DNA from: Verrucomicrobiota bacterium
Lineage (GTDB): Bacteria > Verrucomicrobiota > Verrucomicrobiia > Verrucomicrobiales > Akkermansiaceae
Direction of reading: 5' to 3'
Assembly: GCA_026397695.1 (NCBI GenBank)
Contig: JAPLUJ010000214.1
Coordinates: 1 to 18,431, forward strand
Length of the DNA stretch: 18,431 nucleotides
The notes beneath the pieces were generated by a model. That model saw only the letters and a list, made by a program, of their open reading frames with translations, was not told where the DNA came from and searched no databases. This document shows, piece after piece, positions 1 through 18,397 of the stretch (position 1 is its first letter; each line of letters opens with the position of its first letter). The position numbers and the translations under genes were made by a program.

Positions 1-224
1 AACTCGCCCCGCGCAAGCTGGTCGGACAAATGATGGGCTTCTGGTTCCTTGCCACGGCCCTCGGCAATCTGATAGCCGGCTTGCTGGCCGGCACCTTTTC
101 GGTCGATGCCATCCAGCAGTGGCCAGCCATGTATTTGAAAATCACCGTGCTTCCCATTGCCGCCGGTTTACTGCTGATCGTCTTTTCCAGGTTGCTCAAG
201 AAACTCGCCCCGGATGTGAAGTGA
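1..224 (+). CDS. POT/PTR2-family proton-coupled peptide transporter, C-terminal fragment
   Basis: The reading frame is open from base 3 at the window edge to a TGA at 222-224, so only the last ~73 residues are present. The peptide has the GQMMGFWFLATALGNLIAG signature seen near the end of POT (proton-dependent oligopeptide transporter) proteins. A second hydrophobic helix (MYLKITVLPIAAGLLLIVFS) and a short basic tail follow. By family knowledge this is an inner-membrane MFS importer of di- and tripeptides. It converges on the cyanophycin synthetase-like gene, and a shared palindromic region separates them. An internal ATG at 30 is not the true start, because conserved family sequence continues upstream of it. 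The family call is fairly secure; the substrate is inferred. Confidence 0.75.
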   Translation, partial: LAPRKLVGQMMGFWFLATALGNLIAGLLAGTFSVDAIQQWPAMYLKITVLPIAAGLLLIVFSRLLKKLAPDVK

Positions 225-258
225 TGCCATCTTAAAGAAATAATGTGAATCCAACTGC

Positions 259-301
259 GGAGCGGGACGCTCCTGACACGGTCTGGAGCAGGATGCTCCA
301 G
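259..301. repeat. Tandem pair of GGA-loop palindromes (REP-like or bidirectional terminator)
   Basis: Two perfect short hairpins lie 9 bases apart. The first, at 259-273, is GGAGC with its complement around GGGAC. The second, at 283-301, is CTGGAGCA/TGCTCCAG around GGA. They sit between two convergent genes, so they could act as a bidirectional transcription end or as REP-type elements. There is no long T-run on either side, so a classic intrinsic terminator is not shown. A third hairpin of the same design lies at 13345-13364. Confidence 0.6.
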
Positions 302-337
302 CTACGCTGCGAAGTGGTATGATGATGCGGGATGGCC

Positions 338-2479
338 TCACAATGTGGCAATACCCGCACGGATGATATCCGTCGAGATACCGAGCGCCCAGGCGGCGGC
401 AACCGCTGCCAGGATGTTTTCAAGCTGCGTTTGACCGCACGCCTTGTTAGACATCGGCAACTCCGCCAGCATGAGTACCACACCATCCATCCCGCCCTGA
501 CTCATGACGATGCCGCCATCCCGCACCAACACGGCCCGGCCACCCCGGCTCATATGTTCGGTAACGGCGGGTAACGGAGCGGTGGTGGCAAAGAAAATCA
601 CTTCCCCATCGCAATGCCCGGCCAATTCCACGACCCAGGGATCCGCACCATTCAGCACCGCGACGCCCCCGGGCAACACCACGTCTATCTGGGTACGCAC
701 CACATTGCTGACCTGCTCCACGGTTGCAATGTAATACGGGCCGAAATGGCGGTCCGGTTCCAGGTTGGTGACAATGCCGACCTGACAGCGGTCATAGCCC
801 AGACCTTCTGATAGAATCATCGCAATGCTGTTTTCAAGCACGGCAGCGGTGACCGAACGGTTGATCAAAACTCTTTGCGCCGATGCCCAATTCGCGCAAT
901 CGTTCTTGTCCACCACACGCTTGTCAAACGTCAGGCACTCACGGCTGGCAAGCCCCACATAATACCCGGCCATTTTCAGCAATCCGGCCACGATGCGCGC
1001 CACTTGTGCTTTGCCATGCGTGCCGCAAATTCCGATCACCGGAATACGATCGCTCTCTTGGTCGGAAAACAGGCTGTCAACGATGGCCCGACCCACCGGA
1101 CGAGGTTGTCCGGAGGCAGGCTTCAAATGCATCAACAGACCGGGGCCCGCATTGATTTCGATGATCGCGCCGTCTTGCTCTTCAAGCGGACGGGAAATAT
1201 CTTCCGCAACCAAATCAACACCGGCGATATCCAGACCGATCATGTGCACCGCGTGGGCGACCAAGGCCGCCACCTCAGGATGAACCAGATCGGTCACGTC
1301 ATCCACCACATTGCCATTGCGCTGGATCAACACCTGCGTGCCGGACGGTGGAACCGAATCCGGCGTGTAACCCTGACGGGTGATTTCAAACATGACCGCC
1401 ACATCGTCATCCAAATCCACCAGACTGAGTGGGAAATCTTCACCGATGCCGCGACGCGGATCCGTATTAATTTGCTCGTCTATCAATTTGCGAATCGACG
1501 AGCGCCCGTCAGCCAGCAGTGAGACCGACGCGCCACGTGTAGCTGCCGCCAAGCTGCCGCCAATCATCAGCAGGCGGTGTTCGTGGCCGCGGATGAAGCG
1601 TTCAACAATGACTTCGCTACCCTTTTTATCGGCGAGCTGATAGGCGGTTGCGACCTCCTCGCGTGTCATTAAGTCGGTGGAGACGCCGCAGCCATGATTC
1701 CCATCGGATGGTTTCACCACCACCGGCAAGCCAATGACTGTTGCCGCCTCCCACGCATCTTCCGGACTATCGACAATCCGCCCTACAGGCACCGGCACCC
1801 CGCACGCCTGTAACAAAGTCCGGGTGAGATTCTTGTTTCTGGATATACTCTCGGCAATCGCACTGGTCTTGTCGGTCTCGGCCGTCCAAATCCGTTGTTG
1901 CCGCGCGCCATAGCCCAATTGCACCAGATTGCCTGCCGTCAAACGGATCGAGGGAATGTCGCGGTCGTCGGCCGCTGCGGCGACGATGCACGCGGTGCTG
2001 GGACCCAGACAAAGCGTATCCACCAAATCGTGCAGTTGCGTGTGGGTTGCCGCCATGTCATACGGCTGGTTATGTATTGCCGCGAGGATCAGGTCGCGTG
2101 CCGCATGCAATGCCGCACGGCTCACCTGCTCGTTGCGCGAGCGTACCACCACTTGATAGACACCGCGCACCGGGGTGCCATGGGTTTTGCCAAAGCCGCC
2201 TTGCATGCCGGCGAGATTTTGCAGTTCGAGCGTGACATGCTCGAGGATGTGGCCAAACCCGGTTCCCTCGCGCATGTGTTGCAGGAAGCCCCCCCGTTCA
2301 CCGATGTCGCAGCGGTGCTCGACGAGTGTGGGTAGCCAGCCGGTGAGGCGTTCGTAAAAGCCGGGAATCGTATGGGGTGGTGAATCTTCCAACACCCCGA
2401 TATCAACCCACGCCTCAAGCACCGGACGATACCCCCAGATGTTCGGGCCACGCAGTGGCAATATATTGAGAAACTCCAT
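338..2479 (-). CDS. Cyanophycin synthetase-like ATP-grasp/Mur-ligase protein, short form (CphA2-like?)
   Basis: The protein aligns by eye with cyanophycin synthetases. An N-terminal domain opens with MEFLNILPLRGPNIWGY. A central ATP-grasp domain has VVKPSDGNHG near residues 254-263, then ERFIRGHEHRLL, DPRRGIGE and EINAGPGLLMHL. A Mur-ligase-like domain begins near residue 480. I chose the ATG at 2479 (713 aa) because the family usually starts just before LRGPN; a GTG at 2524 would add 15 residues. Two oddities stand out. The Mur-ligase P-loop reads GTHGKAQ (486-492) instead of the usual GTNGKTT. The protein also stops right after IIRAGIATL, so it lacks roughly the last 150 residues of CphA1. 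Both fit CphA2-type enzymes, which polymerise beta-aspartyl-arginine dipeptides with one active ATP site. A decaying CphA1 is the alternative. It lies 113 bp downstream of the HzsA-like gene. Confidence 0.85.
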   Translation of the reverse strand: MEFLNILPLRGPNIWGYRPVLEAWVDIGVLEDSPPHTIPGFYERLTGWLPTLVEHRCDIGERGGFLQHMREGTGFGHILEHVTLELQNLAGMQGGFGKTHGTPVRGVYQVVVRSRNEQVSRAALHAARDLILAAIHNQPYDMAATHTQLHDLVDTLCLGPSTACIVAAAADDRDIPSIRLTAGNLVQLGYGARQQRIWTAETDKTSAIAESISRNKNLTRTLLQACGVPVPVGRIVDSPEDAWEAATVIGLPVVVKPSDGNHGCGVSTDLMTREEVATAYQLADKKGSEVIVERFIRGHEHRLLMIGGSLAAATRGASVSLLADGRSSIRKLIDEQINTDPRRGIGEDFPLSLVDLDDDVAVMFEITRQGYTPDSVPPSGTQVLIQRNGNVVDDVTDLVHPEVAALVAHAVHMIGLDIAGVDLVAEDISRPLEEQDGAIIEINAGPGLLMHLKPASGQPRPVGRAIVDSLFSDQESDRIPVIGICGTHGKAQVARIVAGLLKMAGYYVGLASRECLTFDKRVVDKNDCANWASAQRVLINRSVTAAVLENSIAMILSEGLGYDRCQVGIVTNLEPDRHFGPYYIATVEQVSNVVRTQIDVVLPGGVAVLNGADPWVVELAGHCDGEVIFFATTAPLPAVTEHMSRGGRAVLVRDGGIVMSQGGMDGVVLMLAELPMSNKACGQTQLENILAAVAAAWALGISTDIIRAGIATL

Positions 2480-2592
2480 CAGACTGGTGAGTAGGCCGTT
2501 TGGCCGCACGATGCTAGGCACCACGCTTTGGCCCTGTCAATGCCGGGATTTGCTTGTCGAGCAGCCATTTGCCGGGTGTTTCTTATGCGAGG

Positions 2593-5100
2593 TCACCGGC
2601 GCGGTGCGCCCGCCCAAACAGGCACCGGGACCATGTTTTCCACCCCGGTGGGACACGTCGGGTCCACATCCACCGGCGGCCACAGCGCATTGCCGGCCTT
2701 TTGGGCGGCGATCTGGCTGCGATCATTGCCGATCCAGCCTATTTCGTTAGAGTTGAGGTCCAGCCACAGCGTGATGCGCCGCCAGTCGTCGGCGCTCAAT
2801 TGCAGGTCTTTGTGCTGGGGCATGGTTGTCAGGGCTTTCATGATGCCTGAGGCGCGGGCGCCGAAGCGGCCGGGGGTTGTGCGTGAGCCGCCGACGCCGA
2901 GCATGGCGAGCGCCTTGTGTTCGCCTGGGTAGCTGAAGGCGAGATTATTTCTGGCCAGCGACTTGTAGCTCATGTCCGGGGCCCGCGGATTCTTTTTGTG
3001 ACACTCGACACACTTTTTGTCGAACACCGGGGTCTTCACCAGTTGGGTATAATTGAAGGGCATGGCACCGCTTGCGACCTCGGGTGTTAGTTTCGACGGC
3101 GGACGTTTCAGTGCGGTCGACAGGTTGTAGTTGGTGCCGGACTTCCACTTGTCCTCATGGCATCCGAAGCAGGTCATTTGTTCGCCGGGATGGACATATG
3201 TGGCCGAGCGCATCGAGTGCACGGCCATGCCCTTCTCATCAAGCAGCTGGAAATAGATCGCCTTGCCCACCGGTGCCTCGCAATGGACGCTGCCGTCCGC
3301 CTCGACCGGCACGACGCCCAGGGCCATCCGGCCCGCCGAGTTGGTGGCAAAGCCGATTTGGGACACCGACTGGGTGCTGAACTCCAGATCGAACAACTGG
3401 GGAATGACCTGCACGATACGCATCCATTTCACCTTGGTTCCCTCCATGCTGATGGTGGCACGTTTGTGATCGGGCAGGGTCGCGCGCTTGCCCTGCCAGG
3501 TCTGCACAGGCAACACCGGCGGCAGCCAGCGTGGACGGATCGGAAAAGGATCCCTCACGCGATAATGCGGATTGCCCGGATCATGGATCAACTCACGGTT
3601 GCCAAACCTATCTAACATGTATAGGCCGGTTTGATAATTGCACAGGTAGAAATCCTCGTTCAGCGGCCATGCGGTGCCATAGGCATAGGTGGAGCCCTGT
3701 TCGACCTCCGGAAAAGGATATTCAGGGGTGATGCGTTTGACCTGGGCCATCGCGCCGTCATCGGGAATACGGGTGTCAATGAGCACGAGACTTCCGGAAA
3801 ACCCTTCGTGGTGACCCACGGCCGTGGCCGTGAATTTCGGCGAGTCGGGGACCGCGCGGAAGGAGATTTCAGCGTCGGGCCGCAGGTTGCGCCCGTAAAC
3901 CAGGGACTCCCTGCCATACTGGTGGGGTTGGAGGCCCTCGGTCATGGCGGACCATGGCAGGGGATAATTGCCGTGGAAGTTACGGGGGTCCCGTCCGTCG
4001 GGCATGCATTCCCAGAGGTGATGTGCGGTTCCCCAATGGCGGTCGACGTAGTCCCAGCGGGTATAGATGATCTTGCCGTCATGGGTGATGCTGGGTGCCC
4101 ATTCATTGGTTTCATGATAACTCAGGCAGATGATGTCCGATCCATCCTGCTCCATGGAATACAGCGTATAGGTCAGCGACTGCGGGGTGAGCACGCATCT
4201 GCCAACGCCGCCCCGGCGCGTGGAGGTGAAGACAATTCTTCCAGATGGCAGGAAGCATGGATCGAAGTCGTCCGCCGTGCCGTCGGTGAGTTGGGTGAGT
4301 TTTTTGGTGGTGATGTTATAGTTGAAGATATGCCATATTTCACCGATGGTGGTGGCGGCGAACAGGAGATCCCTGCCATCGTAACTGAATTCCAGGCCCG
4401 AGAACTTGCCGGTGAGTTCCTTGCCCTGCCATGGCCCGGATGACACCTTGATGCTGGCCAGCGGCGCGACGGTTGCGGCTTTGGACTTGAAGTTTTGAAT
4501 GACGAGAGGACCACCGCCATTGCTGTGCCCCCGCCAGATGGCGCGCGCCTGCTCGATGATGCGGCCATTGCCGGGTTGTTCGAGCATGCATACGATGTTA
4601 TCAAAATTGAGCAGCGGATTGGCGAACACCACCGTGCGGCGCAATTCGCACACCGCAAAAAACAATTTCCTGCGCGCCTCCTCCGCAGTCGTGAGTTTGG
4701 CCTCGGCGGTCAGTTTTCCCAGTCTCGCATCAAACCCGCCGGTGATGGCGGCGGACAATAATGCGCGCGACTTGAAATGTGCAAGCAGCGCGTTTGTCCG
4801 TCGCAGCACCACGTCGAGCGGATCCGCATCCGCAGGCTGCACCAGCGCCTGCGGGTCCAACGCTTGTGCCGCTAGGCGTTCACGCCTGGCCTTGGAGGAG
4901 GCCTTCTGCTTGTTGAGTTGGCCGGCGGTTTCATCATACTCATGCTGCCATGCTTGATCCGGTGTGAGGGAGGGGGATGCATTCTCCAGACCCGCCGCAG
5001 AGGAGGGATCTTTTTTGTTAGGGTCGCGGGGTGCGGCCAAGCCGGTGTAAGGCAAGCACGCTAGCAGGCTGATTTGCAGCAAGGTGGCGGCACGATTCAT
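2593..5100 (-). CDS. Secreted HzsA-like beta-propeller protein with two c-type haem motifs
   Basis: This 835-aa protein has a Sec signal peptide (residues 1 to about 23, MNRAATLLQISLLACLPYTGLAA). A charged low-complexity linker with coiled-coil potential follows (about 50-90). The middle of the protein carries TolB/WD-like propeller blades, for example YDGRDLLFAATT, LPSGRIVFTSTRRGG and THDGKIIYTRWDY. The C-terminal part has two CxxCH haem motifs, CFGCH at 644-648 and CVECH at 697-701. This layout matches proteins annotated as hydrazine synthase alpha-subunit-like in planctomycetes and verrucomicrobia. In most of these hydrazine synthesis is not implied, so a periplasmic electron-transfer or haem-dependent redox role is the safer reading. 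The PSCyt1 cytochrome lies immediately upstream and may be a partner. An inverted repeat lies 30 bp upstream of the start. Confidence 0.75.
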   Translation of the reverse strand: MNRAATLLQISLLACLPYTGLAAPRDPNKKDPSSAAGLENASPSLTPDQAWQHEYDETAGQLNKQKASSKARRERLAAQALDPQALVQPADADPLDVVLRRTNALLAHFKSRALLSAAITGGFDARLGKLTAEAKLTTAEEARRKLFFAVCELRRTVVFANPLLNFDNIVCMLEQPGNGRIIEQARAIWRGHSNGGGPLVIQNFKSKAATVAPLASIKVSSGPWQGKELTGKFSGLEFSYDGRDLLFAATTIGEIWHIFNYNITTKKLTQLTDGTADDFDPCFLPSGRIVFTSTRRGGVGRCVLTPQSLTYTLYSMEQDGSDIICLSYHETNEWAPSITHDGKIIYTRWDYVDRHWGTAHHLWECMPDGRDPRNFHGNYPLPWSAMTEGLQPHQYGRESLVYGRNLRPDAEISFRAVPDSPKFTATAVGHHEGFSGSLVLIDTRIPDDGAMAQVKRITPEYPFPEVEQGSTYAYGTAWPLNEDFYLCNYQTGLYMLDRFGNRELIHDPGNPHYRVRDPFPIRPRWLPPVLPVQTWQGKRATLPDHKRATISMEGTKVKWMRIVQVIPQLFDLEFSTQSVSQIGFATNSAGRMALGVVPVEADGSVHCEAPVGKAIYFQLLDEKGMAVHSMRSATYVHPGEQMTCFGCHEDKWKSGTNYNLSTALKRPPSKLTPEVASGAMPFNYTQLVKTPVFDKKCVECHKKNPRAPDMSYKSLARNNLAFSYPGEHKALAMLGVGGSRTTPGRFGARASGIMKALTTMPQHKDLQLSADDWRRITLWLDLNSNEIGWIGNDRSQIAAQKAGNALWPPVDVDPTCPTGVENMVPVPVWAGAPRR

Positions 5101-5156: not shown

Positions 5157-5212
5157 TGGTGGTTCTTGCGTGAAAATAACGCCACAATGCACCCGTACGC
5201 AAGCTATTTCTA

Positions 5213-5984
5213 TCAGGGTTTCCCGGGTTGGTGTGGAAGCTTGAGTTCGGCTGCGGTTTGGTGTTCCGGCGCCCCGGCGTCAATCCACCGCCGCACCAGC
5301 GCGATCTCGTCATCCGTCACTGGGGATTTGCCCCCCGGAGGCATGAAGTGCTCATGGCTGGGCGACAACTCAAGGCGTCTGACCAACTCGCTGGCGGCGG
5401 CGTGGCCGGGCACCACGACCGGACCGAATTTGGGCTCTTTGAGGATCGCGTCATAGCTGTCCAAGCGCAGTCCGCCCTTGACCTTGTCGGGGCCGTGGCA
5501 GGCAACGCATTTGGCGGACATCACCGGCAGCACCCAGGCAGCGAACGCGGATTCACCGGCCGCCCCCCCGGCAGGTGCCACCGGCTGGACGTCGGCATTG
5601 GCACCACTGGGTTGGCGTTCCAGCATCGGCAGGTAGTAGGTCAGGTAACCGCTGCCATGCGTCAGAGAACCGCCAAAATGGCTGGCCACCAGCAAACCCA
5701 GCAGCGCCACCGCGAGCATCGCACCGTAGGCCGTGCGCCAGTTGAGCCAATGCATAATCAAGGTCAGCAGGCATGCGCCCACCACGCCGCAGCCGGCCCA
5801 CATGTGCCAAGTGAGCAGACGCGGATCGTAACTGCCACTGCGGGCAAGCAACAAACCGCAAGCGCGGCCAGCGCGCGAGGATTTCGAGGCAGACCAACAG
5901 CACGAGAAAGCCAATCGGCAGATGCACCAGAGGCAGGTGGAATCGGCCGCAAAACAAACTGAGTTCAAGAGGGATGCCGCTCAT
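5213..5984 (-). pseudogene. PSCyt1-type membrane cytochrome c (DUF2231-like N-terminus), frameshifted
   Basis: The N-terminus, in the frame starting at ATG 5984, reads LFCGRFHLPLVHLPIGFLVLLVCLEILARWPRL, a typical DUF2231-like first membrane helix. The rest continues in another frame: a membrane segment (MWAGCGVVGACLLTLIMHWL), another (AYGAMLAVALLGLLVAS), the hallmark SHFGGSLTHGSGYLTYY, then a planctomycete-type cytochrome domain with CVACHGPDKVKGGLRLDSY and an ending HFMPPGGKSPVTDDEIALVRRWIDAGAP. The switch lies around 5850-5890, within repeated GCGCGC/GGCCGCGC sequence. Compared with the family, about 25-30 residues (the second helix) seem to be missing, so a frame-changing deletion is likelier than one lost base. 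A sequencing or assembly error is possible. The stop is TGA TAG. The intact protein would bind haem c outside the inner membrane. Confidence 0.7.
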
Positions 5985-6172
5985 GTTGTTAGATTGGAAT
6001 AAATGAAACCATGGCGGGTGTGAGGCGATCCGGGTCTCCCACCTGCGAACTCCTCGCCGGCTGATGCTTGCCCGCCCACGTGGCCGACTAAAGAAAAAAA
6101 TCTCTTTTGCTCATCGGGGGTGCGAGCGGGATCCAGGCCGGGGCGGGGCCGTCTTATTGCAGGGCGGGTTGG

Positions 6173-8668
6173 CTATTTTCCGGTGTCCACTTCCCATTCG
6201 GTGATGCCAGCGGAGAAACCCTCGACCAGATCGAGTTCGATGCGCAGGGCTTGGGTGGTGACGGGTTGGATTTTCACCTTCACCGGTTCGGCCTTGCGGA
6301 TGGCATACACGGGCGAGCCGGGCGCGGGTTGCCAGGCACCGGCCTTGTCCTGATAGAGCAAGCGCCACGCCTGCGGCAGGCGGCACTCACCGGCATCGGT
6401 GTCCTCAGACCAGGTCACGGTCACGCCGTTCACCTTGATGGGTTTTTCGAATTCATAGGCGATCCATTCCCGGCCGCCCTTGTGCGGCCAGAAGTCAAAG
6501 ACCGGAGCGAATCCATCGCTGGCGTTGCGCGACATTTGCTGGTCGTTGATGCGGCCGGGGTCCATGCCGACGCGCACGAATGAGACGCTGATCTTCGCCA
6601 TGGAAGCGGCAGTGGGAACGGGCACGGGACGCACGTGTTTGGCATCGCGGCCGAGCCAGACGGCCATGGAAGATAGGCCGCGGTTGTTCCATGAGGCGTA
6701 GGGAATCGCGACCAAGGTCACGGGTTCCGCGCCAACGCCGCCTTTTTTGCGCACCACGCGTTGCGCACCGGTCACTTCTAACACAGTCACGCCACCTAAC
6801 AAATCCGGTTTGAAAACGGGGGTTGCTTTGGCCGTGACGGGCAGCGCGACATCGGCAACCGGTCCGTTGTTATCCAAGCCTTCGAAGGCATAGACGACGG
6901 GTCCGCGTTCGAGCGCGACCTGGCCGCGGGTGGCGGCGATTTTCTGATTGCCAGCCACGCGGCGCACGGGCATGGGCAGATTGAGGTCCACCACATCACC
7001 GGCTTTCCACGGGCGCTGGATGATGGCATATCCATCCTTGATGTCGGCCTTGAGCAATTCGCCATTCACCTTCACGGTCCACGCGGCTGGGGTGGGATCG
7101 TCGTATGCGTAGAGATCGGTGGGCAGGGGCTTGCCGCGCACCCAGTCGGGAATCCGCAGACACAGGGAGAAGTCGCCCTCCTTCGCGGGATCGACTGATA
7201 GTTTGATTGCGCCATCCCACGGGTACTTGGTTTGCTGGCTGATTTTCACGGTGTTGCCCTGCACCTCGGCGCGGGCATCGCCTTGGGCGTAGAGATTCAC
7301 GAACAACCGCCTGTCCTGCACGGCGTAGGCATAACCTCCCAGCGAGGCCATCGTGCGCAGGACATTGGGCGGGCAACAGGCGCAGCCAAACCATGGGGCG
7401 CGGCCGGCCTGGCCGTGGTTGTTGGCGTCCTTGCCATTGTATTCAAGCGGGTTTGGATAGAAAAAGCGCTCGCCTGATAGAGAAACTCCGCTCAGGAAGC
7501 CGTTGTAGAGCGTGCGTTCGAAAACATCCATGTATTTGCCCTCGCCGGTCATCAGGAACATGCGCTGGTTCCAGAACAGGAAGGCAATCGCGGCGCAGGT
7601 TTCGTTGTAACAGCGGTGGGGCAACTCGTAGTCATTGCCATAGGCCTCGCCGGCGGCACGCGCGCCGCAGCCGCCGGTGATGTGGAGTTTTTTGCCCACC
7701 ACGTTTTCCCAAATGGCGGTGATGGCATCAAGGTAGCGCTTGTCGCCCTTGAGCGCGGCCACGTCGGCCATGCCGCTGTAGAGGTAATTCGCCCGCACCG
7801 CGTGGCCGACGGCTGCACGCTGCTCAATGACAGGCAGGTGGTCCTGACTGTAATCACTGCCGCCCTTGCCGTCCTTGCCGCCCCTGCCGCGGGCGTCGAG
7901 GAAAAACCTGGCGAGATTGAGAAACCGCTCGTCGCCGGTTTTCCGATAGAGTTTGGCCAGGCCCATTTCAATGACCGGATGGCCGGGTGCGATCACCGGT
8001 TCGCCATCACCGAAGTCCTTGTGCACCAACTCCGCGCTCTTCAGGCAGATGTCCAGCAGGGTCTTGGATTTGGTGGCCTGCTCATAAGCCACACCCGCTT
8101 CGTATAAGTGGCCGAGATTATATAACTCATGGCTGAGCCCCGGATCCTTGAGCCAGCGCTGCGGATCGATCCAGTCGTGCGCCGGTGAATCCGGATGCAT
8201 CGTCCGCCAGGTGTAAAGATAGCCATCCGGTTCCTGCGCCGCAGCGACCCGCGCGATGATGCCTTCCAAGCGTTGCTGCAATTGCGCATCCGGGCGGACG
8301 CTCAGACAAAACGCGGCGCCTTCGAGGACCTTGTACACATCCGAGTCATCGAACGGGTATTGCGTCGGCGGCTTGTGTTGGAAATCCTTGTCGCCGGCGG
8401 CGCGGCGTTTCAGCGTGTCGGCGGCGAGATCGAAGTTCACCATGCGTTTCGACGACTCGCACTGGTCGAGCGCAAATGGCAGGGTCACCTTGTTGTTGAT
8501 TTCCTGACGATCATGCCACAGGCCACCGGTGAAACTTACGTCGGTGAAGGGCACCGGCCGCACCGGATAGTCCGCCGCGCCGAGCAGTCCAACCGGCACG
8601 ACGGACATCGCGAGAAACATGCACCGGACCGGCAAGTGGCGGCCCTTGGAGAATAATGATTTTTTCAT
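6173..8668 (-). CDS. Secreted GH127 (DUF1680) beta-L-arabinofuranosidase-like glycosidase with C-terminal discoidin-like domain
   Basis: The family is recognised from FTDVSFTGGLWHDRQEINNKVTLPFALDQ, AQEPDGYLYTW, GGCGARAAGEAYGNDYELPH and the CCPPN motif (431-435). In characterised GH127 enzymes a cysteine of the CCPPN region is the nucleophile and zinc is held by nearby cysteines and a glutamate; NETC (E356), C429, C431 and C432 are present here. The C-terminal ~130 residues (WIAYEFEKPIKVNGVTVTW, ALRIELDLVEGFSAGITEWEV) look like an F5/8-type carbohydrate-binding domain. I chose the ATG at 8668 (831 aa) because it puts a signal peptide (MKKSLFSKGRHLPVRCMFLAMSVVPVGLLGA) first; the open frame extends to 8770. 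It probably releases L-arabinose from plant or algal polymers outside the cytoplasm. The Gfo/Idh gene upstream may belong to the same pathway. Confidence 0.85.
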   Translation of the reverse strand: MKKSLFSKGRHLPVRCMFLAMSVVPVGLLGAADYPVRPVPFTDVSFTGGLWHDRQEINNKVTLPFALDQCESSKRMVNFDLAADTLKRRAAGDKDFQHKPPTQYPFDDSDVYKVLEGAAFCLSVRPDAQLQQRLEGIIARVAAAQEPDGYLYTWRTMHPDSPAHDWIDPQRWLKDPGLSHELYNLGHLYEAGVAYEQATKSKTLLDICLKSAELVHKDFGDGEPVIAPGHPVIEMGLAKLYRKTGDERFLNLARFFLDARGRGGKDGKGGSDYSQDHLPVIEQRAAVGHAVRANYLYSGMADVAALKGDKRYLDAITAIWENVVGKKLHITGGCGARAAGEAYGNDYELPHRCYNETCAAIAFLFWNQRMFLMTGEGKYMDVFERTLYNGFLSGVSLSGERFFYPNPLEYNGKDANNHGQAGRAPWFGCACCPPNVLRTMASLGGYAYAVQDRRLFVNLYAQGDARAEVQGNTVKISQQTKYPWDGAIKLSVDPAKEGDFSLCLRIPDWVRGKPLPTDLYAYDDPTPAAWTVKVNGELLKADIKDGYAIIQRPWKAGDVVDLNLPMPVRRVAGNQKIAATRGQVALERGPVVYAFEGLDNNGPVADVALPVTAKATPVFKPDLLGGVTVLEVTGAQRVVRKKGGVGAEPVTLVAIPYASWNNRGLSSMAVWLGRDAKHVRPVPVPTAASMAKISVSFVRVGMDPGRINDQQMSRNASDGFAPVFDFWPHKGGREWIAYEFEKPIKVNGVTVTWSEDTDAGECRLPQAWRLLYQDKAGAWQPAPGSPVYAIRKAEPVKVKIQPVTTQALRIELDLVEGFSAGITEWEVDTGK

Positions 8669-10065: not shown

Positions 10066-10434
10066 GGGGTGATGATGGTGGGTGTGAGGTTTGCGGGAAA
10101 CTTGCTGTCAAAAAAACTAACAGAATGGTGTGCATGAATGGGCTTCGCCGGGCTGCACCTGCCCATGGAAGGCGAATGCGTGAAGCGAAGGTCGGGATTG
10201 AAAGGGCAGCGAACATTATTTGCAACCATGAAAATGAGGTGAAGTCAGCGATCCCAGGGCGATTGGCTTAATCCGCCTCTGTTCAAGGAAACTCAAGGTT
10301 TTTTGAGTTTTAGTTCAACATAGGCGCTGATTTTGTCATTTTAACGCTGATATGCTGGCACCGGCGGAAATTGCAAGGAATTTGTCATGAGAAATCAAAG
10401 GCTAACGCCGGTTGTCCACCATGCATTGTTCGCT
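10066..10434. other. Intergenic region at the left edge of the cassette-like array
   Basis: No convincing gene is seen in these ~370 bp. Contents noted: a TTGACA at about 10106-10112 read on the minus strand, which could be a -35 element for the Gfo/Idh gene; an 8-bp inverted repeat, AAACTCAA/TTGAGTTT, near 10289-10310; and an attC-like core, GGCTAAC (minus GTTAGCC), at 10400-10406 just after the ParE stop codon. The AT-richer composition here marks the change from the core genes to the cassette region. Confidence 0.5.
10400..10434 (-). repeat. Possible short or truncated attC-like site after the ParE cassette
   Basis: Read on the minus strand, the toxin stop codon TAG is followed by GCGAAC and, about 20 nt later, CGGCGTTAGCC. 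GTTAGCC fits the attC R' core GTTRRRY exactly, and GCGAAC can pair with it except at one position. The whole element is only about 35 nt, shorter than known functional attC sites (about 57 nt or more), so it may be a truncated end or a chance match. Its position right after the cassette gene is what would be expected. Confidence 0.35.
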
Positions 10435-11020: not shown

Positions 11021-11167
11021 ATCACGGCCCACTTTCTTCTTGGCATAACGTCAAAGCGCACGCACCCCTATCAGCGAGGGCGGGCGTCGATCACGGAGTT
11101 AAGGTTGTAGATACGGAAAATCATCGAAAACAGAACGGCTGATAGGGGTTGCTGTGGCACGACTTGT

Positions 11168-11705
11168 GTGTGCCCAGCATGGGCACGTTGTAAATGGGGT
11201 TGAAGTCCCCTGTAGGAATACCAGAACATGAAAATGAAGAAACTACCATCTGAAGCCAACTCGCGAAGGGTAACCGACGCGGGGAAGGAAGGCTAGGAGA
11301 AATGAGGAGGGGATCGACCCCGTTACGGACAAGCCAACCGACAACGCCAGACGGCGAGGTGAGCTTGAGAGCCGTGGCAGAGGGAGCCGAGGCCGAAGCC
11401 GAGACAGCCAGCCATAGGCTGCCCGGAGGGCGGGCGAAGCCCGGCAACCATGGAGCCCCTCAAGAACGAACCAAGATCGAGGACATCCTTGAACCGGAAA
11501 ACCTCTCGGCAGCGTGGAAACGCGTGAAGAGAAACAAAGGCGCTCCGGGGATCGACGGCATGACCGTGGAGGACTTCCCTGCGTTCGCGCGGGGACACTG
11601 GCCGAGGATTGCCACTGCGATCAGGGATGGAACCTACCGGCCCGCGCCCGTCAAACGGGCGTGGATTCGTGGGACCCGGGAGCTAACTACTCCCGGGGAC
11701 CCGAT
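11168..11705 (+). mobile_element. Group IIC intron remnant, internally deleted, inserted in an attC core
   Basis: The 5' end, GTGTGCCCAGCATGGGCAC, is typical of bacterial class C group II introns and follows the exon sequence TTGT. The 3' end carries a domain VI-like hairpin (about 11674-11702; CCCGGGAG/CTCCCGGG around CTAACTA, with a candidate branch-point A) and finishes in ACCCGAT. Removing 11168-11705 rejoins the exons as TTGT|TAGGC, restoring an exact GTTAGGC core. The intron runs antisense to the cassette genes, as known for IIC-attC introns. At 538 bp it is far shorter than the ~1.8-2 kb of intact relatives: most of the reverse transcriptase and a recognisable domain V are missing, so it should neither splice nor move. 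The deletion junction lies near 11655-11670. Confidence 0.8.
11302..11660 (+). pseudogene. Group II intron reverse transcriptase, N-terminal fragment
   Basis: From about 11470 the frame encodes EDILEPENLSAAWKRVKRNKGAPGIDGMTVEDF, then IATAIRDGTYRPAPVKRAWI. This is the RT-0/RT-1 start of intron-encoded proteins of the LtrA type. After about 11660 the frame runs into domain VI of the intron RNA and ends at 11739 in unrelated sequence. The YADD catalytic motif, the maturase (X) domain and all later RT blocks are gone, so the product cannot be active. The region before about 11470 is open but reads as intron RNA rather than protein; the original start codon is uncertain, and ATG 11302 is just the first in frame. 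Confidence 0.8.
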
Positions 11706-11995
11706 TAGGCTCTTCGGATTTCGCGGCGAAGAGCATTGAAATCTCCAGCGATCTCGTTGCGAAGTTCACAAGGCAGCCTGCGCCAGTCACAGTCAATAAG
11801 TGCTCCCGCTATTGCATAGGCCATGACTCGTGATACGGAATGGCCGGCCTCCAGCATTAGGCGGCACGCCTCGATAGCTCCAATGCGTTCCAGATGGGCG
11901 CGGGATGTGATTCCCACTTCGGCCAGACACGCAGCACTCATCGGCCCAAGGTTGCGAAGGCTCTGCAATTCTATGACTGGCGTGGAGCTGGGCAT
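11705..11995 (-). CDS. TfoX C-terminal-domain-like small protein
   Basis: This 96-aa protein reads LQSLRNLGPMSAACLAEVGITSRAHLERIGAIEACRLMLEAG, a helix-hairpin-helix-like pattern found in the C-terminal domain of TfoX/Sxy proteins and in free-standing homologues (PF04994). The following part, AYAIAGALIDCDWRRLPCELRNEIAGDF, fits that family as well. TfoX proteins regulate competence, but stand-alone C-terminal domains have no settled role, so no function is claimed. The start lies 3 bp after the upstream gene's stop. The TAA stop coincides with the attC core GCCTAAC and is kept after the intron inserted, because the first intron-derived base is also A. This gene and its neighbour appear to share one cassette. 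Confidence 0.7.
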   Translation of the reverse strand: MPSSTPVIELQSLRNLGPMSAACLAEVGITSRAHLERIGAIEACRLMLEAGHSVSRVMAYAIAGALIDCDWRRLPCELRNEIAGDFNALRREIRRA

Positions 11996-12960: not shown

Positions 12961-12968
12961 GCGAGGAT

Positions 12969-12988: not shown

Positions 12989-13344
12989 CAGCAAGGGAAA
13001 TTTTTGTGGAATATTCTGGGGCGAACAGTGTATTCTCCGTGAGTAGGGTGGACACATGTTGCGGGGATGCCAAGCTGATTCTGATAATTGCTATCGCAGC
13101 ACGCTGATTTTCAGATGGATGGGCTTTTGGTATTGATTTCTGGAACTTCAGGCATGTTGGTTTATCCGTAATCGCGAACCTAACAGATACGGTTTCTTCA
13201 AGGTGATGTGATTTTTTGGATACATGGAATTTCCGAGGAAACGAAAGGTGCATTTTTTTTTTTCTTCCCGCGCTCCGTAACTCACGTCCTCTTTCGCCCT
13301 TTTGACCTCTGACAACCGACAACTCTTCCTCTTATGAAGAAAGA

Positions 13345-13364: not shown

Positions 13365-13386
13365 CTCCGTTCTTCTGCCTCTTCAC

Positions 13387-13414
13387 CAATGACCAATGAC
13401 CGATGACCAATGAC
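13387..13414. repeat. Four tandem CAATGAC heptads
   Basis: Units CAATGAC, CAATGAC, CGATGAC and CAATGAC follow one another without spacers. They are too short and unspaced for CRISPR. The heptad period and AT/GC balance suggest a slippage-prone simple repeat or repeated protein-binding sites. Confidence 0.7.
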
Positions 13415-13531
13415 TTCTTCTCTGCACGGCATCGGGTTTCTTGCCCAGCCTTGAGATCATGGCTTTCGTCCAGCGCGTTTGTGGTTTTGGGAGTGGGGGG
13501 ATTCCCAGCTTGCGCTGAGAGATACGCCTGT

Positions 13532-13795: not shown

Positions 13796-13893
13796 GCGGG
13801 GAAACGGTGCAACGACATCCCCGCACTCATCAAGAGAAAATATTTGCCGCCCTGCAATAAGCGCAATGGTCCGCCGCAGGGTGCCACCGTAAC

Positions 13894-15153
13894 TCAGCGG
13901 GACATCGCACACGCTGCGGCCGCCAGCCAAGCGGTGGAGAAGGCGATCTGCAGGTTGAACCCGCCGGTATCGGCATCGAGATCGATCATTTCACCGGCAA
14001 AATACAGGTGATTGACGATCTTGGATTCCATGGTGGTCGCATCCATCTCGGATGTCAGCACTCCCCCGGCGGTGATGATGGCTTCCTTGAACGGACGGCA
14101 ACCGGTGACGGTGAACCTGAAATCCTTCATCAATAACAGAATGGCGCGTCTTTCCGCCGCCGTCAATTGATGCCCCTCCTTGCGGCCTGAAATACCGGTT
14201 GCCTCAAGAAAAACCGGGATCATGGCGGCTGGCAACCATTTGCGGAAAATGGCATCCATGCGGGTTTGCCCGTGCGCGGTGAGGTCGCGGACCAAGCGGG
14301 CATCCAGCTTGGCTTCGTCCAGCGCGGGCTTCAGGTCCACCGCAAGCTCAACCGTGTGGCGCTGGCGCAGCGCATCCACCATGCACCGGCTCAGCGTCAG
14401 GATGATAGGCCCGGACAGCCCGAAATCGGTAAATAGAATCTCACCAAAGGCTTCCCTAACATTTTCCCCATCGACCCAAACCCTCGCCCTGACATTTTTC
14501 AGGCTCAATCCCTGCAGGCGTTGGGCGCGATTTCCCGCAGTCTCCATCGGGACCAGTGCCTGCCTTGGGGTTGCAATGGCATGTCCCACCGAAGATGCAA
14601 ACCGGTAACCATCACCATCCGAACCGGTGGCGGGATAGGACATCCCTCCGGTACATAAGATGATGTTGCGCGCGCGAATGATACGGTTCCCGTTCCGAGA
14701 GCGAACCTTCAAGCCTTCCACCATGCCTTCCCGCACGACAATATCCAACACCTTGTGCTGATAGCGGATTTCCACTTGGTGATGCAGCACCCATTGCATC
14801 AGGGCATGGACCACATCGGCGGATTTGTTGGAAACCGGGAACACGCGGCCGCCGCGTTCCACCACCGTGGCGCAGCCGTGGTCATGCAACAAGCGGACGA
14901 TGTCGTCGGCAAAAAAGGTGGCAAAGGCATGTTCGAGGAACCGGCTGTTAGGATGGATGTGTTGGAAGAATTCACTTTGCGGGGCATCATTGGTGATATT
15001 GCATCTTCCCTTGCCGGTGAGCAGGAGCTTGCGCCCCGCCCGCTCCATTTTTTCCAGCAGCAGCACCTGGCACCCCAGTTCCGCCGCCCTGCCTGCCGCA
15101 ATCAATCCCGCGGCCCCGGCACCCACCACGATGACATCATACGTTTTCTCCAT
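13894..15153 (-). CDS. BaiN/HI0933-family NAD(P)/FAD-dependent oxidoreductase
   Basis: This 419-aa flavoprotein opens with the dinucleotide-binding motif VVGAGAAG (9-16). The family signature RKLLLTGKGRCNITN follows, and the ending LYFAGEMIDLDADTGGFNLQIAFSTAWLAAAACA is typical of HI0933/YhiN/BaiN proteins, whose C-terminal GE-D-GGFN region contacts FAD. Length is normal. Family members are soluble FAD enzymes; one characterised relative, BaiN, acts in bile-acid dehydroxylation, but the usual substrate in free-living bacteria is unknown. The gene starts 12 bp after the hemB stop, so the two are probably co-transcribed. The reason for linkage to haem synthesis is not evident. Confidence 0.9.
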   Translation of the reverse strand: MEKTYDVIVVGAGAAGLIAAGRAAELGCQVLLLEKMERAGRKLLLTGKGRCNITNDAPQSEFFQHIHPNSRFLEHAFATFFADDIVRLLHDHGCATVVERGGRVFPVSNKSADVVHALMQWVLHHQVEIRYQHKVLDIVVREGMVEGLKVRSRNGNRIIRARNIILCTGGMSYPATGSDGDGYRFASSVGHAIATPRQALVPMETAGNRAQRLQGLSLKNVRARVWVDGENVREAFGEILFTDFGLSGPIILTLSRCMVDALRQRHTVELAVDLKPALDEAKLDARLVRDLTAHGQTRMDAIFRKWLPAAMIPVFLEATGISGRKEGHQLTAAERRAILLLMKDFRFTVTGCRPFKEAIITAGGVLTSEMDATTMESKIVNHLYFAGEMIDLDADTGGFNLQIAFSTAWLAAAACAMSR

Positions 15154-15165
15154 CGATACGACGGG

Positions 15166-16149
15166 TCAGTCATCCCTGAGCCAGCAGGCCGCTTGCCTGG
15201 CGAAATAGGTTAGAATCATCGACGCTCCCGCACGCTTGATGGCCACAAGCGACTCGAGCACGATGGCACGTTCATCCAGCCAGCCGCCGGCGGCGGCGCT
15301 CTTGAGCATGAGATACTCGCCGCTCACCTGATAGGCCGCCACCGGCAGCGTGGTGGTGGCCCGGACGCGGGCGATGACGTCAAGATAGGGGCCGGCCGGC
15401 TTGACCATCAGCATGTCCGCACCCTCGGCCTCGTCCAGCAGGGTTTCTCTAACAGCCTCGCGCGTGTTGGCCGGATCCATCTGATAGGTTTTCTTGTCGC
15501 CTTCCTTGGGTGCGGAATCGAGCGCCCCGCGGAACGGCCCGTAGAAGGCGGAAGCATATTTCGCGGTATAACTCATGATCAGGACTCCGGTGAAATCCTC
15601 CGCGTCGAGAGCGTCGCGGATGGCGGCGACACGGCCGTCCATCATGTCGGAAGGTGCGACGATGTCCGCGCCGGCGCGGGCATGGCAGATCGCCTGCTGG
15701 CAGAGCACATCCACGGTTTCATCGTTGAGGATGGTCAGGCCGCCACGCGCGTCGCGCCTGACGATGCCATCGTGGCCGTCGGAGTTATAGGGATCGAGCG
15801 CAACGTCGGTGATGACACAAAGCGTCGGATGGGCGGCTTTGAGCGCCCGGATCGCCCGCGGCACGAGACCACCACCATGATATGCTTCCACCGCCTGCGG
15901 CGACTTGAGCGCTTCCTCGATTTTCGGGAAAAGCACCACTGCCGGGATGCCCAGAGCATGGACTTCCCCCGCCTCACGCACCAAGCTGTCGAGCGACCAG
16001 CGGGTTACTCCCGGCATCGAGTCGATGGGCGTATCCACCGTGCCCTCGTGCAAAAACATGGGCAGGATGAAATCGGCGGGAGCCAGCGTGGTCTCGCGGA
16101 CCATCGAGCGGATCGCCGGCGATTGGCGGTTGCGGCGTGGGCGGTTCAT
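15166..16149 (-). CDS. hemB: Porphobilinogen synthase (delta-aminolevulinate dehydratase), magnesium-type
   Basis: HemB joins two 5-aminolevulinate molecules into porphobilinogen, a cytoplasmic step of haem synthesis. The two active-site lysines are K197 (SYTAKYASAFYGPFR) and K250 (LMVKPAGPYLDVI). In zinc enzymes the metal loop has three cysteines; here it reads DVALDPYNSDGHDG (115-128) with aspartates, as in Pseudomonas-type magnesium-dependent enzymes. Length (327 aa) and ending (GASMILTYFARQAACWL) are typical. The N-terminal RNRQSPAIRSMVRETTLAPADFILPMF agrees with the chosen ATG. It is the first gene of a likely operon with the flavoprotein and the ACP-like gene, and could supply haem for the c-type cytochromes encoded elsewhere in the window. 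Confidence 0.95.
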   Translation of the reverse strand: MNRPRRNRQSPAIRSMVRETTLAPADFILPMFLHEGTVDTPIDSMPGVTRWSLDSLVREAGEVHALGIPAVVLFPKIEEALKSPQAVEAYHGGGLVPRAIRALKAAHPTLCVITDVALDPYNSDGHDGIVRRDARGGLTILNDETVDVLCQQAICHARAGADIVAPSDMMDGRVAAIRDALDAEDFTGVLIMSYTAKYASAFYGPFRGALDSAPKEGDKKTYQMDPANTREAVRETLLDEAEGADMLMVKPAGPYLDVIARVRATTTLPVAAYQVSGEYLMLKSAAAGGWLDERAIVLESLVAIKRAGASMILTYFARQAACWLRDD

Positions 16150-16351
16150 GGGAGGATGAGTGTGGTGGGTGGATCGTGGCCGGTGGGCGGTGCAGCGTGC
16201 GTTGATTTCATGGGCATTCTGGCGTTTCCGAGCTGCCGGGTCAACGCCTCATCCCGCGCCGCCCGCGAATACAGAAACGCCGGAAATACCATGCCAATAG
16301 CGCGAACCATCGACACCAACCCGCCTCCACCCGACATGAATTCCGGCGACG

Positions 16352-16513
16352 TCAGATAGCGGCTGGTGCGGTAGTTGTCTTCAGCTTGCGGATGGTGATT
16401 GCCAGGAAATTGTTTTGCGGGGTGGCGTACATGGGACGACGCTGCAGCGGCGCGAGCACCAGGGCGGCGATGAGTGGGAGGGTGTGTTTCAGGATGGTTT
16501 CCTTCGTTTTCAT
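16352..16513 (-). CDS. Short ORF with a signal-peptide-like N-terminus, probably a gene remnant
   Basis: A 53-codon frame starts MKTKETILKHTLPLIAALVLAPL, which looks like a Sec signal peptide, then continues QRRPMYATPQNNFLAI before an early stop. The rest of the 390-bp gap between hemB and the second GH127 gene (16150-16540) shows no recognisable domain in any frame. The simplest reading is the leftover start of an exported enzyme whose body was deleted. A genuine small secreted peptide is possible, but no ribosome binding site is obvious. Confidence 0.3.
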   Translation of the reverse strand: MKTKETILKHTLPLIAALVLAPLQRRPMYATPQNNFLAITIRKLKTTTAPAAI

Positions 16514-16540
16514 TTTGGATAATCAACATTCACCATTTCG

Positions 16541-18397
16541 CTAGAATTTGAAATAGGTTCGGGGCCCGGTCTTAAGGCTCCCGCTACAAAAAAATGGTTT
16601 CAGCACAATGTTCGATCCCTTGATGCGAAACTCCGGCAGGCCACCATCCTTGACCGGGCATGGCTCAAGCCATTCCGATGCTGCTTTGGATGGAATGTCC
16701 TTCCCGTTGAACGGCTCGGCGAGGGCCGCGCCCTTTTCCGTCGTCTGTGCCAATGCCCAGGGGCCATAGGTGAAGGCAACCCACTTCCTGCCGTCCTTGG
16801 GTAATGCAAAGTGGCTCTCGAGCTGATACTCGAAATCAATCGCCACCTCATCGCCCGACTTCCAAGCGCTCTCTAACATATAGAACCCACGCTCATTCTT
16901 CCTTGACTCAATTTCCTTGCCGTTGATCCGCACCGCTGCCAGACGCGCGCCCAAAGGCTCCTTGAACTCCACGGCAAATTCCTTGCCAGTGGTTTGTGCA
17001 AATCGGATTTCCGCCTTGGGGCTGATGGGATAATTGCCCATCCCCTTGATTTTGGCCTGGCCGAATTTTTCCGCCAGGACTCCGATGCATGGAGCCCGGC
17101 TGGTGAATGCAACGGCCCCATCCACTTCCCCGATCAGATAGCGGGAGAACATTTCCAACGCCCGCGGGCCGCTCGAGGAACAGCACTTGATCCCGGACTC
17201 ATAGGGCTCATGGTCCTGATTGGCCCTGGTGTAGTAACACCAATCGATGCCTTCCCCATATTGTGCCATCATCAGGGAATTGAAGACCGCCCGCTCCGCC
17301 TCCGCAGCATACCTGGACTGGCCGGTCAGCTCCAACAAATGCAGATTCAACTGGATCCAGGTGGTCGTGGAGCAAGTTTCGACAAGGACTGCGGCGGGGT
17401 TGTAATCCTGCGGGTGCGCAAAGCACTCCCCGTTTCCGTTGTAGGGCGTCTTTATACTCCATGGACCTCCCGTGACATCAAGGTGGTGCGCCTTGATGTC
17501 ATCCCAGGCGTTCTGCACGGTCTTCAGGTATCGTTCGTCCCCGGTGGACTCATAAAGACGCAGATACCCCAGCAGATTGGCCATCAACTGATAGGCCTTG
17601 CCATCACCCGAATCAACCACGCTGCCTTTTTCCAGCATGTTCCCCATCAGGCGCAGCTTCGGCTTATTTTCACTCAGTGCTACAATATGGCCGGCGAAAT
17701 CCAGGTATTTCTTTTCCTGGGTCCGCGCATAAAGCATGACGATGGATTCCAGCAGCGTGGTTGCGGAGATTCCCTGGCGGGTGCCGTAATTGGTGATGTC
17801 GGCTTTGCCCTCTCCGTAGATCTCGATCAGCAAATCCGCCATCTTCCGGCACGCCTGCACCACGCGCGGGTCCGGGTGGAATTTCTCATACGTCAGCAGG
17901 CCATAGATGTTATAGCGCAGCGTCCAGGTGTCCCATCCGCCCGCCGGTTTACGCGTCCCCCCATTCTTCTGCGGTGCGGCCACATCGTCAGCTATATTGT
18001 AGTCAGCGCCATACGTGCCCAAATATCCATTGGCATCCTGCGCCGCCAAAAGACGCTGCACCGTCTCCTGCAATGCCTTCAACAATTTAGCATCCTGCGT
18101 CTGTTCATACGCCAGGGTGGCGGCATGGAGCCATTTGCCCACGTGCTCGCCCTGCCAGGGATGACGCCCGGGCCGTGATTCAAATCCGGATAACAGATAA
18201 CTGTCTTCCGCTGTGAGCATGTGCCAGAGGCGGCCGTTCCGCCACAGTTCGAGTCGTTCGGCAAACAACCCTCCTCCCGGCGCACTGGGCACGGACCGCC
18301 AGACACCAGGCACCCTTTCCCTTGGCTCTTGGGCAAGGACTCCAGCCGCTTGAAACTGCGCTGCTACGACAAGCAATACCGGCAAGTAGTTGTGCAT
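16541..18397 (-). CDS. Secreted GH127/DUF1680-like glycosidase, divergent
   Basis: This 618-aa protein has a signal peptide (MHNYLPVLLVVAAQFQAAGVLA). An (alpha/alpha)6-barrel-like body follows, with WQGEHVGKWLHAATLAYEQTQD, AAQDANGYLGTYGA, WDTWTLRYNIYGLLTYEKF and TGDERYLKTVQNAWDDI. The catalytic region is comparable to GH127: VETCSTTTWIQLNLHLLELTG (E340, C342) and KCCSSSGPRAL (C405, C406), where the usual CCPPN is CCSSS. A C-terminal beta-sandwich resembles that of DUF1680 enzymes (EVAIDFEYQLESHF, GRKWVAFTYGPWALAQ). The cysteines and glutamate that could hold zinc are kept, so activity is plausible; the linkage it cuts is not predictable. It differs too much from the other GH127 gene to be a recent duplicate. 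The start lies close to the window edge. Confidence 0.8.
   Translation of the reverse strand: MHNYLPVLLVVAAQFQAAGVLAQEPRERVPGVWRSVPSAPGGGLFAERLELWRNGRLWHMLTAEDSYLLSGFESRPGRHPWQGEHVGKWLHAATLAYEQTQDAKLLKALQETVQRLLAAQDANGYLGTYGADYNIADDVAAPQKNGGTRKPAGGWDTWTLRYNIYGLLTYEKFHPDPRVVQACRKMADLLIEIYGEGKADITNYGTRQGISATTLLESIVMLYARTQEKKYLDFAGHIVALSENKPKLRLMGNMLEKGSVVDSGDGKAYQLMANLLGYLRLYESTGDERYLKTVQNAWDDIKAHHLDVTGGPWSIKTPYNGNGECFAHPQDYNPAAVLVETCSTTTWIQLNLHLLELTGQSRYAAEAERAVFNSLMMAQYGEGIDWCYYTRANQDHEPYESGIKCCSSSGPRALEMFSRYLIGEVDGAVAFTSRAPCIGVLAEKFGQAKIKGMGNYPISPKAEIRFAQTTGKEFAVEFKEPLGARLAAVRINGKEIESRKNERGFYMLESAWKSGDEVAIDFEYQLESHFALPKDGRKWVAFTYGPWALAQTTEKGAALAEPFNGKDIPSKAASEWLEPCPVKDGGLPEFRIKGSNIVLKPFFCSGSLKTGPRTYFKF

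Follow-up and report, generated by a model that had tools for sequence, protein, structure and literature searches.

In an 18,431-nucleotide stretch of DNA from a Verrucomicrobiota bacterium of the family Akkermansiaceae (contig JAPLUJ010000214.1; the whole stretch is hereafter the window), the heptamer CTGATAG occurs 17 times, 14 times on the plus strand and three times on the minus strand, against a mean of 0.79 and a maximum of 4 in 200 dinucleotide-preserving shuffles. CTGATAG is one spelling of a degenerate, directional and non-palindromic word of the approximate form (T)CTG[TAC]TAG[AG]. Judged from sequence, and with about even confidence, the word is best explained as resembling a DNA uptake sequence (DUS, or uptake signal sequence, USS) that is kept at high copy in many members of the family. 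The 17 coordinates listed in an earlier note on this DNA were each verified, its counts of one-base variants were reproduced (one each of CTGATAC, CTGATAA, CTGATAT, ATGATAG and GTGATAG and two of CCGATAG), and its claim of unusual CTA-TCA-G codons at 808, 7195, 7474 and 9753 is correct. Its treatment of CTGATAG as the lone enriched word does not hold: the window also contains sibling spellings (CTGTTAG 4, TTGTTAG 4, TTGATAG 2, CTGCTAG 1 and ATGTTAG 3), and a family of words is enriched in a 130.6-kb sample of the genome to which the window belongs. This genome (G000; the window is its contig C281) comprises 4.53 Mb in 759 contigs, is 83% complete, and contains 1359 copies of CTGATAG versus 309 of the reversed word. 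At 1 per 1.1 kb, CTGATAG is about three times as dense in the window as in G000 on average (1 per 3.3 kb), and CTGHTAG reaches approximately 669 copies per Mb in G000 and 1219 in G102. A search of the window against Rfam at gathering thresholds gave no match.

In the 130.6-kb G000 sample, which consists of the window and 20 other contigs, a third-order Markov model shows an excess of CTGATAG (58 versus 5.9 expected), CTGTTAG (39 versus 5.8), TTGTTAG (52 versus 8.7) and CTGCTAG (17 versus 1.7), and no excess of CTGGTAG (4 versus 5.8). Under a second null, a synonymous-codon shuffle in which amino-acid order and codon totals are fixed, the top-scoring heptamer is CTAACAA/TTGTTAG, with 46 copies versus 2.7 expected. 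The positional preference is for T, C, T, G, T or A, T, A and G, followed by A or G. Substituting any of the four fixed bases in G-H-T-A-G in most cases brings the count down to or near expectation, with exceptions such as CTGTTAT in G001 (14 versus 3.4), and with T as the fourth base more variation is tolerated at the first two positions of the word. Of the palindrome-like forms, neither CTGNCAG nor CTANTAG shows a clear excess in G000 or G102; in G000 they number 74 versus 57.3 and 2 versus 2.1 expected, compared with 104 versus 23.9 for CTGNTAG, and a palindromic word of the HIP1 type was rejected on these counts. CTGNCAG is raised in G001 (170 versus 94.2).

The excess is a DNA-level feature that goes beyond what protein sequence or codon totals explain. 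Coding DNA was delimited with a purpose-made simple gene caller, which called too few genes in some genomes (G141 and G101). In the sampled coding DNA of G000, the combined pattern YTGHTAG is found 162 times (82 sense, 80 antisense) versus 27.9 expected from the synonymous shuffle, and the reversed control 77 times versus 63.8. Similar excesses of YTGHTAG are observed in the coding DNA of G102 (136 versus 26.9), G035 (80 versus 17.0), G021 (56 versus 11.8), G001 (205 versus 37.8), G018 (42 versus 12.2) and L041 (23 versus 4.4), and none in that of G022 (14 versus 13.1). Noncoding DNA is enriched as well, with 15 copies versus 5.5 expected in G000, 13 versus 5.2 in G102, 14 versus 4.0 in G035, 26 versus 5.2 in G021, 27 versus 14.0 in G001 and 11 versus 3.6 in G018. 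TAG is depleted in other contexts, which is in part an artefact of the shuffle because codon totals are held fixed.

Rare codons are preferred in G000 where they complete the word. The rare leucine codon TTA fills 50 of 136 positions in the context YTG-Leu-G versus 34 of 1220 where a G follows in any other context, and 50 of the 84 TTA codons before G therefore stand in the word context. The ATA codon is used in 14 of 51 cases in the word context versus 23 of 655 otherwise, and CTA in 32 of 116 cases before ACA, TCA or GCA versus 102 of 3368 otherwise. No codon-choice effect is significant in G022, and G158 hardly uses these codons. The comparison of C-TAY-CAG with [AGT]-TAY-CAG is uninformative in G000 (30 of 30 versus 2 of 2) and null in G070, and in G102 and G070 the ATA test shows no effect. 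The test of TTA after CTG and before G is null in G001, a genome that prefers other spellings. There is no clear bias in position within genes (316 sense and 344 antisense sites), and the overlap with stop codons in G000, in 4 of 75 genes, is unremarkable. Gaps shorter than 100 bp are scarce in G000 (0.077 versus 0.163 ± 0.025 at random) and G001 (0.030 versus 0.078 ± 0.017), as expected for even spacing; four other genomes lie within about 1.3 standard deviations of random and G070 shows no such effect, and this observation is not used below.

The strand polarity noted in the window is a local effect. The claim that polarity follows the DNA strand had been based on the site at 11139, quoted for the one plus-strand gene, but this site lies upstream of the open reading frame (ORF) at 11302–11739. 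The 14:3 skew of the window fits the location of 13 of its 14 called genes on the minus strand, and C-TAT-CAG, an easy antisense spelling within a gene, probably contributes to it. Polarity at the scale of a replichore was assessed in one genome, G070, along one apparent replichore arm: 420 kb of contig C1, with positive GC skew in 21 of 21 intervals, carries 187 plus-strand and 162 minus-strand sites (p = 0.20), and adjacent sites are like-oriented in 186 of 348 pairs. The leading-strand skew that had been suggested as a check is not seen in the larger samples, where orientation does not track the replication strand. G001 shows no consistent orientation domains, and in six other sampled genomes neighbouring YTGHTAG sites agree in 48–57% of pairs. 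Within G000 genes, CTGATAG is found 12 times in sense and 40 times in antisense, CTGTTAG 24 and 10 times, and all spellings together 82 and 80 times, which suggests to us that each spelling takes the orientation that is cheapest in codons. The accessible text of one source on known uptake sequences states that no general orientation bias has ever been observed and that one orientation is commoner within reading frames (PMC2346458). Leading-strand polarity is treated as an established property of Chi in the part available of another (PMC8022716). Based on the 187/162 distribution in G070, a segregation word akin to the FtsK-orienting polar sequences (KOPS) is not supported, and a classical polar Chi is weakened, since Chi is known as polar.

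Near-matches to the word are also in excess, in a graded manner. For TCTGTTAGA, the ratio to a shuffled null at zero to three mismatches is 40, 9.7, 1.5 and 0.9 in G102 and 30, 6.2, 1.8 and 1.0 in G000. The reversed TCTGTTAGA control is flat across mismatches, and no clear excess of TCTGTTAGA near-matches is seen in G022 and G093. A graded near-match excess is described for known uptake words, where it is explained by drive, in the accessible text of PMC1939737. Site turnover was followed between G000 and its near relative G209 over a small sample of 13.8 kb of aligned DNA (94.8% identical). Of 27 sites, 20 are identical and 22 still match YTGHTAG, four G209 sites are missing from G000, and matched permuted control words are identical in a fraction of 0.715 of 2256. 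Turnover maintains the excess, in keeping with either drive or mutation bias. Various kinds of substitution, at various positions, account for the nine sites found in just one of the two genomes, an argument against a single mutator. In two genes common to the window and L041, an Akkermansiaceae metagenome-assembled genome that gave the best named match to the ALAD gene of the window (88% identical), three of five window sites are kept. The sites of the window are as follows.

69–75, plus strand: CTGATAG; identical in G209.
444–450, plus strand: TTGTTAG, antisense in a cyanophycin-synthetase-like gene; identical in G209.
808–814, plus strand: CTGATAG, antisense CTA-TCA-G; CCGTTAG in G209.
1480–1486, minus strand: TTGATAG, sense; CTGATAG in G209.
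1637–1643, plus strand: CTGATAG, antisense C-TAT-CAG; identical in G209.
2153–2159, plus strand: TTGATAG, antisense C-TAT-CAA; identical in G209.
5015–5021, plus strand: TTGTTAG, antisense in the gene at 2593–5100.
5061–5067, minus strand: CTGCTAG, sense CTG-CTA-G.
5210–5216, minus strand: CTGATAG, spanning the stop codon of the ORF at 5213–5968 (C-TGA-TAG).
5986–5992, plus strand: TTGTTAG, not within the ORFs checked.
6350–6356, plus strand: CTGATAG, antisense C-TAT-CAG in a GH127 gene.
6796–6802, minus strand: TTGTTAG, sense TTG-TTA-G in the GH127 gene.
7195–7201, plus strand: CTGATAG, antisense CTA-TCA-G.
7474–7480, plus strand: CTGATAG, antisense CTA-TCA-G.
9001–9007, plus strand: CTGATAG, antisense C-TAT-CAG in a GFO/IDH/MocA gene.
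9422–9428, minus strand: CTGATAG, sense, in the phase CT-GAT-AG.
9541–9547, plus strand: CTGATAG, antisense C-TAT-CAG.
9753–9759, plus strand: CTGATAG, antisense CTA-TCA-G.
10117–10123, minus strand: CTGTTAG, not within the ORFs checked.
11068–11074, minus strand: CTGATAG, not within the ORFs checked.
11139–11145, plus strand: CTGATAG, upstream of the ORF at 11302–11739.
13180–13186, minus strand: CTGTTAG, not within the ORFs checked.
14758–14764, plus strand: CTGATAG, antisense C-TAT-CAG in an HI0933-like gene; not kept in L041.
14945–14951, plus strand: CTGTTAG, antisense in the HI0933-like gene; kept in L041.
15328–15334, plus strand: CTGATAG, antisense C-TAT-CAG in the ALAD gene; kept in L041.
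15449–15455, minus strand: CTGTTAG, sense in the ALAD gene; not kept in L041.
15481–15487, plus strand: CTGATAG, antisense C-TAT-CAG in the ALAD gene; kept in L041.
17588–17594, plus strand: CTGATAG, antisense C-TAT-CAG in a second GH127-like gene.

Two genes of the window merit separate mention. The plus-strand ORF at 11302–11739 is remnant-like and aligns only to positions 2–59 of the 353 of a group II intron reverse transcriptase/maturase family, with a score of 50 bits (cut-off 300). The minus-strand gene at 2593–5100 encodes a protein with a hydrazine-synthase-alpha middle domain (PF18582, above cut-off); the protein scores 45.7 bits against the NCBIfam hydrazine synthase alpha family (cut-off 800), and its gene adjoins a PSCyt1 cytochrome gene.

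Within the sample, the word characterises part of one family. This family was taken to be Akkermansiaceae from the L041 match, which came from a collection of genome contigs in which records very near the window may be absent. Among 73 genomes of the genus, counts of CTGHTAG and its reversed control span 3658 versus 1163 (G102) to 92 versus 1599 (G158), raw ratios that are confounded by base composition. In a codon-shuffled survey, 32 of 40 groups had enough DNA (G028, G029, G030, G036, G080, G170, G186 and G190 were dropped) and were classed by eye from three pattern ratios. The word is carried by 18 of the 32 groups, including G016, G096 and G013 on few counts and G141 on 9 kb of called coding DNA; five are weak or ambiguous (G107, G101, G121, G136 and G182), and nine are without it (G022, G158, G033, G093, G009, G195, G066, G074 and G085). 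The preferred spelling varies: by Markov z-score CTGTTAG is at the top in G102 and G021 and CTGCTAG in G001, and by synonymous shuffle GGTTAGA is at the top in G018. In 22 genomes of the order's other families, the raw CTGATAG/reversed ratio is approximately 1.0 to 2.1. Against a second-order Markov expectation, no excess is found in L042–L046 (two Akkermansia, two other Verrucomicrobia and one unlabelled; total 18 versus 17.5) or in 74 additional loci, almost all of which belong to other phyla (630 versus 682 in total).

Two other features of short words were observed among these genomes. GTAC is reduced to 0.02–0.45 of its first-order expectation in word-bearing G102, G070, G001, G021, G000, G018 and G035 and to 0.30–0.54 in word-less G022, G009, G066 and G074, with no depletion in G158, G136, G093 (0.81) and G085; this looks like restriction avoidance. 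One genome has clustered GGATTGAGGATTG-like short repeats, with starts at L001:3704 and 3739, L002:1599–1768 and L012:1697–1711.

The machinery for DNA uptake and recombination is widespread among the genomes examined. ComEC was found in G000 and in 22 of 22 chosen genomes, PilT and DprA each in 31 of 31, and the ComM family above cut-off in 31 of 33. PDDEXK_1 (PF12705) matches occur in 30 of 31 genomes, with frames of AddB-like size (596–981 amino acids) in 28 of 31. The AddB-like frame of G000 has 981 amino acids (C171) and its AddA-size frame 982 (C49), and many genomes have a second frame of about 1000 amino acids, an AddA-like size; both names are putative assignments from domain and frame size. 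The competence genes that the earlier note proposed to look for are thus present (ComEC, DprA, PilT and ComM), and equally so in word-less relatives: the presence of these four and of PDDEXK_1 fails to separate word-bearing from word-less genomes. Because it occurs in both genome classes, the machinery makes either uptake or Chi possible and favours neither. In G158 (C88:4691–8349), the AddB-like PDDEXK match lies in a 209-amino-acid frame that adjoins an AddA-like frame of 1034 amino acids, and this addB may be broken, diverged or misassembled. The comM-like gene (TIGR00368) appears to be split in G093 (C1:3999448–4080719, parts about 80 kb apart) and G009 (C9:316706–356303, about 38 kb), both without the word, and several relatives have extra C-terminal comM pieces, a pattern that resembles the use of comM as an integration site by large elements.

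An uptake-sequence-like word, an idea already raised in the earlier note, fits these observations best because of the copies per Mb, the lack of polarity where tested, the graded near-matches, the differing spellings and the presence of competence genes, which word-less relatives equally have; the polarity claimed alongside it, with the KOPS and classical Chi alternatives, is unsupported. As in known uptake sequences, the copy number greatly exceeds expectation, at hundreds per Mb, and the word shows no general replication-strand bias (in G070, the one genome at that scale), a graded excess of near-matches, and dialects and losses among relatives. Neisseria-type intergenic preference and inverted pairs at terminators are not found for the word, and are not general to USS. 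In the proposed mechanism, fragments carrying the word would be preferred by a DNA receptor on the cell surface, which is probably a minor type IV pilin. DNA taken up via the pilus and ComEC would then recombine and so carry each new copy between cells, with the word accumulating wherever coding constraint permits. The receptor, the biased uptake and the competence of these bacteria are all predictions from genome sequence.

Several observations weigh against an uptake sequence. Unlike the Neisseria DUS, the word is less dense in noncoding than in coding DNA of G000 (0.53 versus 1.58 per kb), and close inverted pairs are few, with no clear excess. At 7 bp it is shorter and looser than known DUS and USS, whose lengths are given as 12 and 9 bp in the accessible text of PMC3630211. 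Among the genes tested, none tracks the word, and competence genes are equal in word-less relatives. Single sites are conserved between G000 and G209 no better than matched words. The mismatch gradient of TCTGTTAGA is weaker in G070 (3.3, 2.2, 1.2 and 1.0), and for this spelling in G001, where there are no exact copies versus 0.1 expected, followed by 2.2-fold and 1.8-fold ratios. Orientation is also not wholly random. With a wider pattern, 72 of 105 neighbours in G018 are alike (p = 0.0002); this like-oriented run follows gene direction, since antisense sites make up 78 of the 91 that lie in genes. Sites within genes of G070 number 150 in sense versus 99 in antisense, and CTGATAG alone is unequally divided between the assembly strands of G033 (140/81), G001 (380/292) and G021 (486/617), assemblies in which contig order and orientation are arbitrary.

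Comparison with known systems shows likenesses to each. Like the DUS of Neisseriaceae, the word has very many copies, graded mismatch forms, and spelling shifts and absences among relatives. The DUS dialects have a shared 5'-CTG-3' core, according to the accessible text of PMC3630211, and CTG also starts this word, coincidence or not. It differs from DUS in being shorter, more degenerate, mostly intragenic, without a clear inverted-pair excess and in another phylum; for this word a ComP-like receptor is only a prediction. Its densities in G000 and G102 are near or above the range of 200–800 per Mb given for USS in the accessible text of PMC12616744. Where tested, it shares with the Pasteurellaceae USS the lack of a general orientation bias, but the USS combines a 9-mer core and an extended flank, is of unrelated sequence, and has the minor pilin ComN/PpdA as its receptor candidate. 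Chi words of RecBCD or AddAB are likewise short, over-represented and directional, and AddAB-like genes are present in genomes with and without the word; unlike Chi, the word has no replication-strand polarity where tested and several spellings at once. KOPS are short and dispersed too, but they are defined by polarity along replichores, which is absent from the word where tested. The cyanobacterial HIP1 is similar in its extreme over-representation and differs in being palindromic.

Among the alternatives, the word could be the target of another sequence-specific DNA protein (nucleoid, segregation, methylation or other) that gains from dispersed copies, which we regard as unlikely. A directional word needs a recogniser, no tracking gene was found among those tested, and the palindrome-like forms have no clear excess in G000 and G102. 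However, a KOPS-like use is unsupported without polarity, and a HIP1-like word would be palindromic. Restriction targets are normally avoided, whereas the word is enriched, and thousands of sites in both gene orientations are ill-suited to a regulator. A Chi-like recombination word, in which AddAB would recognise CTGHTAG and switch to RecA loading so that the word is kept along the chromosome, also has a rather low probability. The 7-bp length, directionality and mostly intragenic location of the word are consistent with it, as are the AddB-like-size frames in 28 of 31 genomes including G000 and the absence of the word from both G074, which has no PDDEXK_1 match, and G158, with its 209-amino-acid frame. 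Yet word-less G093, G022 and G195 have AddAB-like pairs too, and G021 carries the word with an AddB-like frame of just 276 amino acids, which lies at a contig end. Polarity is lacking on the one apparent replichore (187/162), and several spellings are enriched together, whereas the Chi of a species usually varies little.

A context-dependent mutation or repair bias that makes the word without function is improbable. Such biases exist, in that Vsr repair produces a few words in E. coli, and the GTAC depletion in several word-bearing genomes shows other strong word biases in the family. The turnover of sites in G000 and G209 at approximately the rate of matched words would also fit, as it fits drive. 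The nine differing sites, however, vary in the kind and position of substitution, and no neighbour word in G000 or G102 has a deficit that matches the excess of CTGTTAG or CTGATAG; a mutator acting by single-base changes is weakened by both results. Finally, a codon-pair or amino-acid-pair bias (Tyr-Gln, Leu-Ser), to which C-TAT-CAG might point as the commonest phase in the window and the phase of 30 of 40 antisense CTGATAG sites in G000, is hardly credible, because in the refutation test proposed in the earlier note the excess persists with amino-acid order and codon totals fixed, in both gene orientations, in other phases (CTA-NCA, YTG-TTA-G and YTG-ATA-G) and in noncoding DNA.

To our knowledge, uptake sequences are known only from Neisseriaceae and Pasteurellaceae, and why they evolve is a long-standing question in these families. 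A search of the literature on uptake sequences and competence in Verrucomicrobia, and on five of the heptamers by letter, which covered few subscription journals and no bioRxiv, found nothing on the word and no uptake-sequence system in this phylum. We propose, at slightly less than even confidence, that the CTGHTAG dialects form a DNA-uptake "self" code outside Proteobacteria, one that has been gained, lost and respelled, is spread by drive and shapes codon use. If this is true, the receptor would be findable by co-variation across many species. Should the word prove to be Chi-like, it would be a Chi without polarity and likewise unusual. A word that is present, absent or respelled within one genus of another phylum would provide a natural experiment on gain and loss, and it would help to trace recombination in these largely uncultured bacteria.

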